Below, one piece after another: positions 7,981 to 27,241 of a stretch of DNA of 28,669 bases; the stretch's first letter is position 1, and every line of letters begins with the position of its first letter. A model generated the notes under the pieces. That model worked only from the letters and a program-made list of their open reading frames with translations. It ran no database searches and was not told where the DNA came from. Source of the stretch: a virus. Location of the stretch: the IMG/VR virus record IMGVR_UViG_3300031569_001292, positions 1 to 28,669 of that record. One strand, 5' to 3'. Made by a program: the position numbers and the translations under genes.

Positions 7981-8647
7981 ATTGTCCTGGCTTGTATGTT
8001 GCGTAGTCTAATCCTTTAAACACTTCCGGATATTGCTCATTATCACCTTCGCAACTTCTTGTTATATTGAGTAACTCGGCAATATCATATTTTATAAATT
8101 GCCCAATAATCCAATCTTTTCTAGTTTCTATAAATGGGTGACAAACTGTAACTCCCATATGTAACATTATAGCATCTATTGATGGTGTTTGTCTATCATT
8201 TAATGCACCTTCTAACTCTACATCGGGGTTTAATGTTACTCCTGCAAACCATGCATCTAACTTTTCCTTGTGTGCTAGATACTCATTAAACGATCGTAAA
8301 ATAATTCTGTTTCCAGATTTCATTTTACCATTTTCGTCTTTGATCATAGTTGTGTGTGGTTCTTCTAGATCGGGTGGTATAAAGTTTGTGTGTCTTATAA
8401 ATTCAAGTTCTGGAAATTTAGCAATAAACCAATCAAACACTTCAGCTGAAATGTGTTCTTGCCATGGCCTTGTTTTCCAACAGCGTATCTGTGTACTAAT
8501 ATGTACCCTGCAATTTACAGGTAAATTTTTACATACCAAATATGTTAATAATGCACTGTCTGCGCCACCGCTAAGGCTTATGCCAATATTTCTCCATTTT
8601 GGATCAATGGGGAAATCTACATGATCTATTTTAATCCACTTACGCAT
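7907..8647 (-). CDS. PP-loop ATP pyrophosphatase, QueC-like
   Basis: A 246-residue N-type ATP pyrophosphatase. The PP-loop SGGADS is at 26-31, adenylating its substrate and releasing PPi. The C-terminal region carries HPFIETRKDWII, then RSCEGD, then CKKCFWCQER, i.e. a lone Cys followed by CxxCxxC, the zinc-site layout of QueC (7-cyano-7-deazaguanine synthase). True QueC converts carboxy-deazaguanine to preQ0; no QueD, QueE, GTP cyclohydrolase or DpdA partner is seen here, so another amidation or thiolation chemistry is equally possible. The ATG at 8647 is chosen over a TTG at 8662 because it lies exactly 5 nt after TAAATA on this strand, in mirror symmetry with the divergent gene. Head of operon B. 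Confidence 0.78.
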   Translation of the reverse strand: MRKWIKIDHVDFPIDPKWRNIGISLSGGADSALLTYLVCKNLPVNCRVHISTQIRCWKTRPWQEHISAEVFDWFIAKFPELEFIRHTNFIPPDLEEPHTTMIKDENGKMKSGNRIILRSFNEYLAHKEKLDAWFAGVTLNPDVELEGALNDRQTPSIDAIMLHMGVTVCHPFIETRKDWIIGQFIKYDIAELLNITRSCEGDNEQYPEVFKGLDYATYKPGQYVPTCKKCFWCQERQWGVTNAMQQ

Positions 8648-8652
8648 GATAA

Positions 8653-8658
8653 TATTTA
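8653..8658 (-). promoter_or_regulatory. Late-type promoter motif TAAATA, 5 nt before the operon B start
   Basis: On the minus strand TAAATA (8658-8653) is followed by five bases (TTATC) and the ATG at 8647. No Shine-Dalgarno is visible. Under T4 late-promoter geometry the transcript would begin at the A of the ATG. Confidence 0.65.
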
Positions 8659-8690
8659 CCAAGTTCTGTACGCAGTTAATACAGTTCCGG

Positions 8691-8696
8691 TAAATA
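8691..8696 (+). promoter_or_regulatory. Late-type promoter motif TAAATA, 5 nt before the operon C start
   Basis: TAAATA is followed by five bases (TTAGT) and the ATG at 8702. No Shine-Dalgarno precedes this ATG. Together with its mirror copy at 8653-8658, it decides the start choice for both divergent genes. Confidence 0.65.
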
Positions 8697-8701
8697 TTAG
8701 T

Positions 8702-9364
8702 ATGCTAGAAAAAACAACATACACAGTCCCCTTGGAAATGCTTAGTTTGGTTGATGTTAACGAGCTTAACGGCAAAACTTCAATTAACAAGCCAACTGGA
8801 AATTTCTTTTACGATCCGTGGATTATATCTGCTGATTATAGAGACACTGTATGGCATAAAATTTTACAAACACTAGATTGCTCTAATATTGGTGAAGCAC
8901 GAGTTATAGTTTTAAATTCTCCAAGCTGCTATACCAAACATGCAGACATTGACGATCGCTGGCATTTAAATATATTTGGCGATCAAGGATATCTAATTGA
9001 TCTTGACACTGAAATAATGCACAAAACAGAACAAGATGGCATTTGGTACAAAATGGATGCTGGTGTTATGCATACTGCTATAAGTGTTGGCGAGCATAAA
9101 AGAGTCCAACTAATTGTAAGAGAACTTTTAGAACGTAACAAATTAGTTGACCCAGTAAAAGTATGGATATCATTAGTAGGTAACAATCCAAGATACGTGT
9201 TTGATAACACACTAAGTCCTTGGCTTAACAAAATACATAAACAAAAACTAATGTCAAATTTTGAAGCAGGCAGCACTATGGTTAAATTTGATATTGAAAA
9301 AGAATTACTTGCAGAACTTAACAAAGTGAAGCCAGTGCAATTTACAATAGGAATATATGAATGA
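8702..9364 (+). CDS. Fe(II)/2OG-dependent oxygenase-like protein (Asp/Asn hydroxylase type)
   Basis: A 220-residue protein. A candidate metal triad is H80-x-D82 (KHADIDD) and H124 (GVMHTAI), with R134 (HKRVQL) placed like the 2-oxoglutarate-binding Arg of aspartyl/asparaginyl beta-hydroxylases (PF05118). The remaining 85 or so C-terminal residues are unrecognised. The frame is open to an ATG at 8621, but that start would lie inside the divergent PP-loop gene; 8702 is chosen for the TAAATA-N5-ATG unit. Head of operon C; its ATGA overlaps the epimerase gene. Likely a hydroxylase of a peptide or small molecule; the substrate is not inferable. Confidence 0.65.
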   Translation: MLEKTTYTVPLEMLSLVDVNELNGKTSINKPTGNFFYDPWIISADYRDTVWHKILQTLDCSNIGEARVIVLNSPSCYTKHADIDDRWHLNIFGDQGYLIDLDTEIMHKTEQDGIWYKMDAGVMHTAISVGEHKRVQLIVRELLERNKLVDPVKVWISLVGNNPRYVFDNTLSPWLNKIHKQKLMSNFEAGSTMVKFDIEKELLAELNKVKPVQFTIGIYE

Positions 9365-10275
9365 AAATACTAATGACAGGAAGTTCCGGTTTTATCGGAC
9401 AACACTTAACTGCTAGATTAAAAGATCACAACGTACATCACATGGTAAGTGACCTTCGAGATCATAAAGCAGTCACTGACGAAGTAATAGCTGTTAAGCC
9501 TGACATCATTGTACATCTAGCAGCACGTACAGAAGTTGAACAAAGTTTTTATGAACAGATTACTTTCAGTGAGATTAATTACGTTGGTACTGTTAATTTA
9601 ATTGAAGCAGCAGCAAAAGTTAAAAATTTAAAAAACTTTGTATTTGCTAGTACTATGGAAGTTTATGGGTGGCAACCTATTAGTGACGAAGTTGAAAAAC
9701 ATACTATACCAGATAACTTTGTAGCCTTTGATGAAAATACACAACCTAATCCAAATGCTCCATATGCAGTTGCTAAGTACGGATGTGAAAAATATTTAGA
9801 ATACGCACATCGTTGTTTGGATCTTCCGTTTACTGCATTTAGACAAACTAACTGCTATGGTAGAAAAGACAACGACTATTTTGTAACGGAACAAATTATT
9901 AGCCAGATGCTAGTTAGTGATGAATGTAACTTAGGGTACGCAGAGCCATATCGTAATTTTATACATGTAACTGATATGCTAGATGCATGGCAAACTGTAA
10001 TAGAAAACCCGGACAAATGCAATGACGGAATGATATTTACAATTGGTCCTGACAACCCTATCAAGATCAAAGACTACGCAGAACTAATTGCAAAGAAGAT
10101 TGGGTTTACAGGTAAGATTAACTGGAACACAAAACTTTTCCGTGCAGGAGAAATTTATTGGTTAAACAGTAACAACACCTTAATTACTGAACGATTAGGA
10201 TGGGAACCTAAAGTTAGCCTAGACGAAGGTCTAGATAAAACAATTGACTATTGGAGAAGTAAACTTGAAGGATAA
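9361..10275 (+). CDS. NAD(P)-dependent nucleotide-sugar epimerase/dehydratase (extended SDR)
   Basis: A 304-residue extended short-chain dehydrogenase. The N-terminal dinucleotide motif TGSSGFIG is at 6-13; HLAAR follows near 53-57; an active-site Ser/Thr lies in FASTMEVYG; the catalytic Y135-AVA-K139 is intact. Length and motifs fit the UDP-glucose 4-epimerase / GDP-sugar dehydratase superfamily, which acts on nucleotide sugars in the cytoplasm. The exact sugar cannot be told. Its presence, with a glycosyltransferase-like protein and an aminotransferase in operon G, argues that the island handles a carbohydrate. ATGA-coupled to the upstream oxygenase-like gene; its 3' end overlaps the kinase-like gene by 11 bp. 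Confidence 0.88.
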   Translation: MKILMTGSSGFIGQHLTARLKDHNVHHMVSDLRDHKAVTDEVIAVKPDIIVHLAARTEVEQSFYEQITFSEINYVGTVNLIEAAAKVKNLKNFVFASTMEVYGWQPISDEVEKHTIPDNFVAFDENTQPNPNAPYAVAKYGCEKYLEYAHRCLDLPFTAFRQTNCYGRKDNDYFVTEQIISQMLVSDECNLGYAEPYRNFIHVTDMLDAWQTVIENPDKCNDGMIFTIGPDNPIKIKDYAELIAKKIGFTGKINWNTKLFRAGEIYWLNSNNTLITERLGWEPKVSLDEGLDKTIDYWRSKLEG

Positions 10276-24027: not shown

Positions 24028-24568
24028 TATTAGATTATACGCTGACTATGACAAGTTTTTACAAGTAGTAGAAGCAGCAAAGACTGCTATACCAAATAAG
24101 TTTTGTATTGTAGAACATCTAGTTAATGTAACAGAATATGATGACAGCCCTGACTTGACAGATATACACCCAAAAGATAGAAATAACGTAGACTTCCGTG
24201 TCTGTATATTTTATCCAGACAAAGATAATACAATACCAAGACTAAAACCTGTGTGCGATATACTTGAAAATATGCAAGGAGTTGAACGTGCTGCAATTAT
24301 CAACATAGGTCCTAAGTCTATTATGCCAAAGCACATTGATGATATGGAAAGACCTTTATACGAAGAAACTCCATTCTATAATGTGTTTACAGGTTTTCAA
24401 ATTCCACAAGGAGATTTAGGTGTTAAAGTTGGAGAAGATTTAGCAGACGTTAGCAACCCGATAGTTTTTAATGCACAAATACCACACGAAGCATGGAATC
24501 AAACTTCGCAAGACTGGTTATCTTTACTGATATATATTAATAACGATACATTTAAAAAGGAACAATAA
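24017..24568 (+). CDS. Cupin-fold Fe(II)/2OG oxygenase-like protein
   Basis: A 183-residue protein. H106-I-D108 (KHIDDME) and H157 (IPHEAWN) are the candidate Fe(II) ligands; no clear 2-oxoglutarate Arg follows (the strand reads DWLSLLIYIN), so activity is uncertain. Overall size and strand order match the other small cupin-type proteins of the island. The gene overlaps the end of the shortened radical SAM gene by 11 bp and is TAATG-coupled to the amidinotransferase gene, implying stoichiometric expression of the three. Confidence 0.58.
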   Translation: MLHDIRLYADYDKFLQVVEAAKTAIPNKFCIVEHLVNVTEYDDSPDLTDIHPKDRNNVDFRVCIFYPDKDNTIPRLKPVCDILENMQGVERAAIINIGPKSIMPKHIDDMERPLYEETPFYNVFTGFQIPQGDLGVKVGEDLADVSNPIVFNAQIPHEAWNQTSQDWLSLLIYINNDTFKKEQ

Positions 24569-25620
24569 TGAAAGTATCTACTCACAACCATTGGGATCCC
24601 TTAGAAGAGATAGTAGTTGGAATAGCTGACCATGCTAGAGTACCAACTGTAGATCGTAGCACTATGAGCATGAGCTACACTAATCATCCTATGGATTTGA
24701 TTAAACCTTTAGAGGGTGAATATCCTAAATGGCTTATTGATGAAGCAAATGAAGATCTACAAGGGTTAAGTGATGTACTATCTAAAGCAGGTATAAAAGT
24801 ACACAGACCTATTCCAATTGATCACAGCAAAGAATTTAGTACTCCTGAATGGAAAACTACAGGATGGTATACATGGTGTCCTAGAGATTTACTATTGCCT
24901 ATGGATAACTTAGTTATTGAAACTCCTAGTGCTTGTCGTGCAAGACAGTACGAAACTAGAGCATACAGAGATATTATGTTAGAAGCAATTGCCGACGGTG
25001 TTGAATGGATTGCTGCGCCTAAACCAACCCTACCGGATGAAGGCTATCAGTTTGATGACATTGAGGGTAAACCCAGTTTGTTAAATCTAGAGCCTATCTT
25101 TGATGCACCTAACTGTGTACGTCTGGGCAAAGACATATTGTTTCAAATTAGCAACACAGGAAACCATTGGGGATTAAAATGGTTGCAAAATGTACTAGAG
25201 CACAGAGGGTATCGTATACACCCTGCAGAACACATTTATAGTTACGGACACTTTGACAGCACAATAGTACCTCTACGTCCTGGATTAGTATTATTAAACA
25301 GTTCAAGAGTAACCGCAGAAAACTGTCCTAAAGTATTTGAGAAATGGGATAAAATTTGGTTTGATGATTGTGTTGCCCAAGGCAGCAAAATTCCAGGAGG
25401 AGTTGCACCATGCAGTCCTTACATTGGTATGAACATTTTAAGTATTGATCATAATACAGTTGTTGTAGACGATACGCAAGAACCTCTAATGCGTGAGTTA
25501 GACAAGCACGGTATTACTAGTGTACCTGTACGCTTTAGACATGCTATGACTTTAAGTGGTGGGTTGCATTGTGCAACACTTGATTTAAAACGTAAAGGCG
25601 TATTGGAGGATTATACATAA
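24568..25620 (+). CDS. Amidinotransferase (glycine / inosamine-phosphate amidinotransferase family)
   Basis: A 350-residue pentein-fold enzyme. The catalytic Asp-His-Cys set is visible: D179 (FDAPNC), H228-x-D230 (GHFDS) and C335 (GGLHCATLDLKRKG). The N-terminus STHNHWDPLEEIVVG is typical of glycine amidinotransferase and the StrB1-type inosamine-phosphate amidinotransferase. It moves the amidino group of arginine to an amine acceptor, giving ornithine and a guanidino compound. Length matches the family (about 350-390). The acceptor is not readable; an amino sugar or aminocyclitol made by the adjacent aminotransferase is attractive but inferred. AAGGA six bases ahead of the ATG is one of the best ribosome sites in the island. 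Confidence 0.9.
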   Translation: MKVSTHNHWDPLEEIVVGIADHARVPTVDRSTMSMSYTNHPMDLIKPLEGEYPKWLIDEANEDLQGLSDVLSKAGIKVHRPIPIDHSKEFSTPEWKTTGWYTWCPRDLLLPMDNLVIETPSACRARQYETRAYRDIMLEAIADGVEWIAAPKPTLPDEGYQFDDIEGKPSLLNLEPIFDAPNCVRLGKDILFQISNTGNHWGLKWLQNVLEHRGYRIHPAEHIYSYGHFDSTIVPLRPGLVLLNSSRVTAENCPKVFEKWDKIWFDDCVAQGSKIPGGVAPCSPYIGMNILSIDHNTVVVDDTQEPLMRELDKHGITSVPVRFRHAMTLSGGLHCATLDLKRKGVLEDYT

Positions 25621-26114
25621 TGTTAAAGTATTGGGGCAATGTAACTGACTTCTGGAAAGAAGATTTACAGAATTACACATGGCCTGAGTCTGTAAGTACA
25701 GGACAGAACGAAAATTTTCATGATGCTTACTTTGATGAATCTAATAATTTAATGCAAGGGTTTGATGGGCAATTGCCAACCTGCTGTGATAGATTCTTTA
25801 AAGAACTATACATTGAAAAAAAAGAAATTAGCAGCATAAGTTGGACACAAATTAAACCGTCAGGGACTATTCCTGTACATGCAGATAAATTTTTTAAACT
25901 TAGAACAAAACATAATTTAGATATTGATGATTGTGTAAGATATCTTATATTTTTAGAAGATTGGACGTTAGGTCATATGGTTGAGTTTGAGCAACAACCA
26001 GTTACTAAATGGAAAAAAGGTGATGTATGGACATTTACACACGACGATTTACACTGTGCTGGAAATGCCAGTAACCATAACTTTAACACATGCCAAGTAA
26101 ACACGAGGAAATAA
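25620..26114 (+). CDS. Cupin-fold Fe(II)/2OG oxygenase-like protein
   Basis: A 164-residue protein. H87-A-D89 (PVHADKF) and H145 (DLHCAGN) are candidate Fe(II) ligands. Its second half (GHMVEFEQ, WKKGDVWTFTHD) is the closest match in the window to 16764-17264. No obvious 2-oxoglutarate-binding Arg lies after the distal His until the very last residues (NTRK). The start is TAATG-coupled to the amidinotransferase stop with GGAGG about 10 nt upstream; the end is TAATG-coupled to the fusion gene, so these three form a co-translated unit. Confidence 0.65.
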   Translation: MLKYWGNVTDFWKEDLQNYTWPESVSTGQNENFHDAYFDESNNLMQGFDGQLPTCCDRFFKELYIEKKEISSISWTQIKPSGTIPVHADKFFKLRTKHNLDIDDCVRYLIFLEDWTLGHMVEFEQQPVTKWKKGDVWTFTHDDLHCAGNASNHNFNTCQVNTRK

Positions 26115-27241
26115 TGGAACTAACTTCTCTACAAAAAGAATGGAATAACTGTACACTTGAGTACGATCTAGAAAGATTTAATTGGCCTGCATGGGCTTTA
26201 AGTGTTGTACAAGAAGTAGCGCCAACTGTTACTAAATTAGAAACACTACACGAAGTGCTATCTCCTAAAGAGATTGTAACAGTTAGTAAGCATGTACAGA
26301 ATGCGTGTAGCCGTAAAGACTTTATGGAACGCTTTGATGCGTTTGTTGCTGAATACATTCCGCAGCGTATTGACGGTAAACGATTTATGATACAGCGCCA
26401 AGGAACATTGCGTGTTGTTATTCCAAATCAAGCAAAAGTAGGCAGACGTTTGCAGTTTCATCAGGGCATTTTTGTAGGCAACGGTAGAGGTTGTAGAACT
26501 ATATGGACACCGTTCACTGAAGCTCGTGGCACTAATACAATGTGGATGGTTGACCTAGAAAACAGCCGCCGTATTACTAAAGACTTTGTTACAGAAAAAT
26601 GGAGTCTCGAACGTATGGAAGATGAATGTTTAAAGGTTGCGTTTCCTGTTACTCTTAAACCAGGACAAAGTCATTTATTTTTCCAAGAAATGTTACACGG
26701 CAATGTCAACAACGAAGAAGGATATACTCGTGTTAGCATGGATATGCGTATCTTAATTGAAGGTGAAGAATACGGACGCAGACATCCAGGAGGCTTTATG
26801 CGATTGCCTGGCGATCATGAAGTAGCAGAACTAGGAGACTATTCCGGCAAGAGTGCAATTACATATGCAGGATGGGCTAGTGATTTTTCTAGGAATGTTA
26901 CACTACCTATGCAAAGAGCAATTATTGATCAGTACTGCGAAAGAACAAATATACAATACACTAGTTATGAATTTGAGAATGATCATTGTGATTGGCAGCC
27001 AAGTTTAGAATATTTTATTAAACAACAACCTGATGTGATTGTTCTTAACAGTATGTACAGCCTTACTGATGATGCAGAGCGCAGAACAGAATTATTAAAT
27101 TTAGCATTAAGATTAGGTGTAGAGTTGCATTTTGCAAACGAATTGACAGTTCTTAAAACACAAGATGATTTAGATAAAATTGAAACCTATCTCAATTTTG
27201 CAGTAGAAAAATTAGAACCTTATGTTTGGGAATTAGTGTAA
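26114..27241 (+). CDS. Fusion: 2OG-Fe(II) oxygenase-like domain plus LIC12192-like 'sporadic carbohydrate cluster' domain
   Basis: A 375-residue two-domain protein. Residues about 60-225 resemble phytanoyl-CoA-hydroxylase-type 2OG-Fe(II) oxygenases of 'sporadic carbohydrate clusters': LQFHQGIFVGNGRG, then WTPFTEARGTNTMWM, then QEMLHGNVNNEEGYTRVSMD. The proximal site is H116-Q-G118, lacking the carboxylate of the usual HxD, while H195 and R206 are in place. Residues about 245-375 resemble the LIC12192 family: YAGWASDFSRNVTLPMQR, YCERTNIQY, then IVLNSMYSLTDDAERR and VELHFANE. Those two families are usually separate genes in surface-carbohydrate loci. The ATG at 26114 has AGGA five bases upstream and is TAATG-coupled; an in-frame ATG at 26090 is less likely. 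Its last 9 bp overlap the structural gene. Confidence 0.7.
   Translation: MELTSLQKEWNNCTLEYDLERFNWPAWALSVVQEVAPTVTKLETLHEVLSPKEIVTVSKHVQNACSRKDFMERFDAFVAEYIPQRIDGKRFMIQRQGTLRVVIPNQAKVGRRLQFHQGIFVGNGRGCRTIWTPFTEARGTNTMWMVDLENSRRITKDFVTEKWSLERMEDECLKVAFPVTLKPGQSHLFFQEMLHGNVNNEEGYTRVSMDMRILIEGEEYGRRHPGGFMRLPGDHEVAELGDYSGKSAITYAGWASDFSRNVTLPMQRAIIDQYCERTNIQYTSYEFENDHCDWQPSLEYFIKQQPDVIVLNSMYSLTDDAERRTELLNLALRLGVELHFANELTVLKTQDDLDKIETYLNFAVEKLEPYVWELV

Follow-up and report, generated by a model that had tools for sequence, protein, structure and literature searches.

A phage-encoded oxygenase-like domain with glycine at the HxD position, fused to a LIC12192 domain: a tentative Fe(II)/2OG halogenase

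A 28,669-nucleotide window, representing a virus record of 28.7 kb from IMG/VR, encodes an oxygenase-like protein with glycine where the aspartate of the metal-binding HxD motif should be. Is this glycine the mark of a decayed active site, or of a site refitted for a different reaction? The gene is located at 26114..27241 on the forward strand and is an uninterrupted open reading frame of 375 amino acids, which NCBIfam matches and alignment divide into an HxG oxygenase domain and a LIC12192-like domain. Its ATG at 26114 overlaps the stop codon of the preceding gene; an alternative, longer start from the ATG at 26090 is less likely.

Domain organization of the fused protein and its cellular counterparts

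The Fe/2OG oxygenase domain (residues 42–213, 26237..26752, forward strand), assigned from TIGR04324, hhalign, and the structural model, has the PhyH-type double-stranded beta-helix fold. The LIC12192 (TIGR04323) domain (residues 246–361, 26849..27196, forward strand) is predicted to have the serine-recombinase catalytic fold without the catalytic serine and arginine. In the NCBIfam search, TIGR04324, the sporadic carbohydrate cluster 2OG-Fe(II) oxygenase family, matched residues 38–213 (E-value 1.5e-21, 77.1 bits), and TIGR04323/LIC12192 matched residues 263–361 (E-value 1.8e-10, 40.8 bits in the whole protein and 42.5 bits for the C-terminal domain alone). Both scores are below the curated cut-offs of the families (77.1 versus 150 bits and about 41–42 versus 55 bits, respectively). 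Nevertheless, the two-domain reading proposed in the initial annotation is secure, because the profile–profile comparisons gave an E-value of 1.5e-11 for the oxygenase domain against cellular oxygenase families only, and a probability of 98% with an E-value of 4.5e-14 for the C-terminal domain against cellular LIC12192 rows only. The search against PF05721 (PhyH), which the same annotation had suggested, gave no match at E ≤ 1, and neither did the rest of Pfam or PHROGs. TIGR04324 and TIGR04323 were the only NCBIfam matches at E ≤ 1, with no chlorinating-enzyme model among them, and sequence searches of the PDB gave nothing informative.

The cellular families were reached using a TIGR04323 consensus probe, which scored 163 bits by HMM beforehand. 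In the resulting sample of 80 genome loci and one IMG/VR locus, the TIGR04324 gene is located directly upstream of the TIGR04323 gene at 80 of the 81 loci, the exception (L065) ending at a contig edge. The two frames overlap at 63 of these 80 loci, usually by 4 or 8 nucleotides, with start codons picked mechanically. The order of domains in the fused protein is the same as that of the cellular gene pair. No fused copy was detected in 398 genomes from the Pelagibacteraceae phylum or 292 genomes from the cyanobacterial phylum, and the fusion is real and phage-specific within this sampling. The suggestion that it is a Rosetta-stone fusion linking the two families thus holds for the fusion itself but not for the novelty of the link, since the genes are already neighbours in cells; NCBI naming also places both families in one cluster.

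Genes recurring next to the cellular pair encode HldE-like, GmhA-like, two-subunit transketolase, sugar-nucleotide dehydratase, and RmlD-like proteins, as well as PseC/WecE-like aminotransferases and methyltransferases. Because these recurrent neighbours are sugar-nucleotide genes, the pair can be placed in a nucleotide-sugar pathway. Three loci (L098, L112, and L114, at about 7992–9068) contain LIC12192 genes with approximately 220 extra C-terminal residues, and in L143, from a genome of the same order as Pelagibacteraceae genome G001, the TIGR04324 domain is part of an 1874-residue open frame.

The C-terminal domain modelled alone has a pLDDT of 82. The best 31 rows of the VIA comparison all have the serine-recombinase catalytic fold, with Z-scores from 13.1 to 8.1, and the next row, with a Z-score of 7.1, is unrelated. 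Foldseek matched the domain to serine recombinases with a best E-value of 5.4e-6. The comparison of LIC12192 with three resolvases by hhalign was not significant, and the fold is visible only by structure search. Columns corresponding to the recombinase residues were read from a hand-anchored alignment with 20 cellular rows. The Ser10 column contains arginine in 20/20 cellular rows and alanine, asparagine, or serine in phages (alanine in the window copy). The Arg68 column contains glutamine, methionine, or leucine in cells and serine or cysteine in phages (serine in the window copy), and the Arg71 column retains arginine in only three of the 20 cellular rows. The model and these columns together suggest that LIC12192 is a serine-recombinase fold devoid of recombinase catalysis, which provides a structural hint for a recurrent bacterial sugar-cluster family. 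This reading refers to positions 26840–27238 of the window and to the cellular loci L044–L124. Most residues of the GYI.SR and PQ.VQN motifs of TIGR04323 have been lost from the phage domain, in which mainly the tyrosine and the second glutamine are kept. Because of the constant pairing in cells and the fusion in phages, we infer that the C-terminal domain works physically with the oxygenase.

Among the papers searched, none mentions LIC12192 or "sporadic carbohydrate cluster". The poxvirus protein F16 has been described as an inactivated serine recombinase of viral origin (PMC4304020). It resembles LIC12192 in having a recombinase fold with lost catalysis, but has no oxygenase partner and belongs to a different biology. 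Two LIC12192 rows gave weak matches to Pox_F16, with a best E-value of 0.026.

The glycine motif and its fixation in the phage family

The metal-binding motif H116-Q117-G118 (26459..26467, forward strand) has glycine at the position of the aspartate of cellular relatives in the alignments. The predicted second iron ligand, H195 (26696..26698, forward strand), is invariant in phage and cellular rows. The R206-V-S208 segment (26729..26737, forward strand) is expected from the alignment to clamp the C5 carboxylate of 2-oxoglutarate. In the nucleotide halogenase AdeV, this carboxylate is held by R263 and S265 (PMC12766721), which have the same spacing as R206 and S208. The HxG motif, with H195 and R206 kept, is found exactly where the initial annotation had placed it, and these residues are invariant in all rows of the 18-member phage alignment. 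H116, H195, R206, S208, and R212 are identical in the phage and cellular copies. The phage domain and TIGR04324 therefore share the profile-level domain, the same histidine, arginine, and serine residues, and the TR.S...R strand, whereas they differ in the aspartate, which TIGR04324 keeps, and in the fusion of the phage version to its partner.

The changes fixed in phages relative to cells cluster just past the motif. Besides the aspartate replaced by G118, an aspartate is replaced by N123, a serine–proline pair by G124-R125, and a glutamate by C127; a further change, lysine to N141, is located downstream. The phage-fixed stretch N123-G-R-G-C-R128 (26480..26497, forward strand), identified by comparing phage and cellular copies, corresponds to D-S-P-x-E in cells, which changes the local charge from negative to positive. 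R111, R112, and R125 are new near the site in the phage proteins. The gain of arginines and loss of acids would favour an anion, and the phage active site looks refitted rather than abandoned.

Relatives of the fused protein were collected from IMG/VR in two scans. The first scan, using patterns that do not contain the HQG motif, identified 37 relatives that are 72–94% identical to the fused protein. The second identified at least 119 relatives, of which 80 were kept, and is a biased set because one of its two patterns includes HQG. In both scans together, HQG is present in all copies that cover the site (113 loci, 56 distinct proteins), and two incomplete copies do not extend to it. G118 is encoded by GGC, GGA, or GGT, and at 109 of the 113 loci the frame of the oxygenase domain also contains the C-terminal HFA signature of LIC12192. 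Across 15 diverse phage copies, pS is approximately 0.7, and pN/pS is lowest, 0.075, in the HQG segment (residues 110–135), followed by 0.081 in the H195–R206 segment (residues 183–214), compared with 0.204 for the whole oxygenase domain and 0.222 for the LIC12192 domain. G118 is thus selected rather than a product of decay, because no stretch of the gene is more constrained than the one around it, while synonymous sites are near saturation. Sequencing error or decay as the source of the glycine is ruled out by the 56 distinct proteins and the saturated synonymous sites. As read from these alignments, the Gly118 signature and its fixation in the phage family are solid.

The aspartate is equally constant in cells. 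The HxD motif is present in 82/82 cellular TIGR04324 rows, and additional cellular copies also have it, except for one interrupted copy with HxE; a few partial alignments do not include the motif. Glycine as a trait of the entire TIGR04324 family is therefore ruled out. The question of whether glycine is family-wide, raised in the initial annotation, receives a divided answer: the phage family always has glycine and the cellular rows always aspartate, as would be expected if the function had switched. An unfused module of the cellular type with an HGD motif is present in one phage contig (L158:2312-6006), which contains a terminase-like gene, and comprises genes for the N and C halves of transketolase, the HGD oxygenase, LIC12192, and a methyltransferase.

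The fused family is absent from INPHARED phages. The 216.7 kb contig of one relative also encodes portal and baseplate proteins, and its SbcC-like protein is nearest to those of the jumbo phages Phosso and PA5oct, and DnaB from the contig of another relative is nearest to that of PA5oct. The first scan of genome contigs with the phage-family alignment and the search for Terminase_6N among large relatives were unproductive.

A candidate halogenase and the alternatives

The AlphaFold2 model of the protein (m9f0867428667) has a PhyH-type barrel, with a pLDDT of 86.9 and a pTM of 0.84. By E-value, for the phage model alone, the best five Foldseek rows are the CurA halogenase (best 1.7e-10), and SyrB2 is ranked eighth. 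By Z-score, VIA places the HxD hydroxylase PtlH first (Z-score 14.2, rmsd 3.6, 214 aligned residues); the Z-score of 12.8 for PHYHD1 agrees with the PhyH-type double-stranded beta-helix. No halogenase is among the best 50 VIA rows, an absence that excludes nothing. The search of BFVD structures returned mostly generic PhyH/2OG folds. Since the Foldseek E-values favour the CurA halogenase and the VIA Z-scores favour PtlH, the ranking of modelled folds does not discriminate a halogenase from a hydroxylase.

The defining change of Fe/2OG halogenases is the replacement of aspartate or glutamate by glycine or alanine, which leaves a site for the halide (PMC12346261). The phage protein has the same signature, with glycine in place of the HxD/E carboxylate and the histidine and arginine kept. 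To our knowledge, all characterised natural Fe/2OG enzymes with glycine or alanine at this position are halogenases. The phage protein shares the HxG/A...H...R residues and PhyH-type fold with the aliphatic halogenases SyrB2, CurA Hal, BesD, WelO5, and AdeV, but differs from them in its identity of only about 15%, its phage origin, and the attached recombinase-fold domain. In the leading reading, to which we give a close to even chance, the protein is a phage Fe/2OG enzyme with a facial dyad of two histidines, probably a halogenase or another anion-transferring enzyme. In such an enzyme, Fe(II) would be bound through H116 and H195 only, and 2-oxoglutarate through R206 and S208. G118 would leave the coordination site of the aspartate open, with chloride or bromide the likeliest external anion to occupy it. 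Reaction with O2 would generate a ferryl species, and once this had taken a hydrogen from a small metabolite, the resulting carbon radical would receive the anion. As substrate, a sugar, amino-sugar, or nucleotide-sugar intermediate is probable; a sugar-type substrate is perhaps indicated by the sugar-nucleotide genes accompanying the cellular pair and the epimerase and amidinotransferase genes next to the phage gene. The recombinase-dead C-terminal domain, which in cells is the separate product of the next gene, would probably have a role as a partner or in substrate handling.

The same residues could serve an active Fe/2OG enzyme with a reaction other than halogenation: the open site would take water or the substrate's own phosphate, carboxylate, or hydroxyl group, and the reaction would be hydroxylation, epimerisation, or desaturation. 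All iron- and 2-oxoglutarate-binding residues other than the aspartate are kept and strongly constrained, the new arginines might just as well bind a substrate bearing a phosphate or carboxylate group, and the Foldseek neighbours include the epimerases and cyclases SnoN, SnoK, and HygX. However, glycine or alanine at the HxD position is the halogenase rule (PMC12346261 for the general rule), and we regard such an enzyme as unlikely, though a serious candidate. Rather improbable is a non-catalytic derivative, the oxygenase domain of which binds a ligand or partner after the loss of redox chemistry. Of three iron ligands, only two remain, and the fold of the attached domain is that of an enzyme with lost catalytic residues, which makes repurposing plausible; however, H116, G118, H195, R206, and S208 are among the most constrained positions, and a protein that only binds need not retain the second histidine and the 2-oxoglutarate clamp. 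It is quite improbable that the third iron ligand has moved, most likely to E192, making the protein an ordinary hydroxylase: this acid is located three positions ahead of H195, does not vary among the aligned phage copies but does in cellular ones, and could in principle bind metal; however, it is in the stretch just before H195 rather than at the HxD position, and we know of no earlier example of this set of ligands.

Weak tblastn matches over residues 12–218 identified StrG-like plasmid proteins from Azospirillum and Burkholderia, which differ from the phage protein in keeping an HRD motif and in having no LIC12192 domain. D210, another acid fixed in phages, is ruled out as compensation for the aspartate because a StrG-like protein with an intact HRD motif also has it.

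Returning to the halogenase reading, it is plausible but doubtful that the family constitutes a clade of Fe(II)/2OG halogenases confined to phages and derived from a sugar-cluster-type oxygenase by the aspartate-to-glycine change, with a repurposed partner domain of serine-recombinase fold. We know of no halogenated product from these phages and of no Fe/2OG halogenase from a virus, and the enzyme would be the first if its chemistry were confirmed. The described phage halogenases known to us are flavin enzymes, such as VirX1 from a marine virus; 20 of 153 cyanophages have been reported to carry genes resembling tryptophan halogenases (PMC10452541). If the reading is true, this family, widespread in aquatic phages and bearing the signature of Fe/2OG halogenases, would represent a different halogenation chemistry in viruses, and provide a natural pair of HxD and HxG homologues for studying the evolution of the switch from hydroxylase to halogenase.

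Genomic context of the fused gene

The gene upstream of the fused gene and overlapping it (25620..26114, forward strand) encodes a small 2OG-oxygenase-like protein, recognised from its sequence, which keeps an HxD motif (HAD); it has no Pfam match, and relatives also have it next to their fused gene. An amidinotransferase-like gene of the glycine/inosamine-phosphate amidinotransferase type (24568..25620, forward strand) is a frequent neighbour, found near the fused gene in about twelve contigs. About ten other contigs have a homologue of the window's NAD-dependent epimerase/dehydratase (9361..10275, forward strand) near the fused gene, in most of them directly upstream. In some contigs, none of the other genes of the window are near the fused gene. 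Unlike TIGR04324 clusters, the window has no recognisable transketolase gene.

Adjoining a fibre-like gene, positions 630–24027 of the window contain about ten radical SAM-like genes and at least seven that resemble 2OG oxygenases, a dense modification cluster in a 28 kb phage fragment. A similar cluster of amidinotransferase, radical SAM, 2OG-oxygenase, and sugar-transferase genes is present in Synechococcus phage S-SCSM2R, and in Campylobacter phage CP220 an amidinotransferase gene accompanies radical SAM and sugar-transferase-like genes. A gene of S-SCSM2R annotated as PrnA, the name of a flavin halogenase (L155:16686-18095), is located approximately 7 kb from the amidinotransferase, 2OG-oxygenase, and radical SAM cluster.
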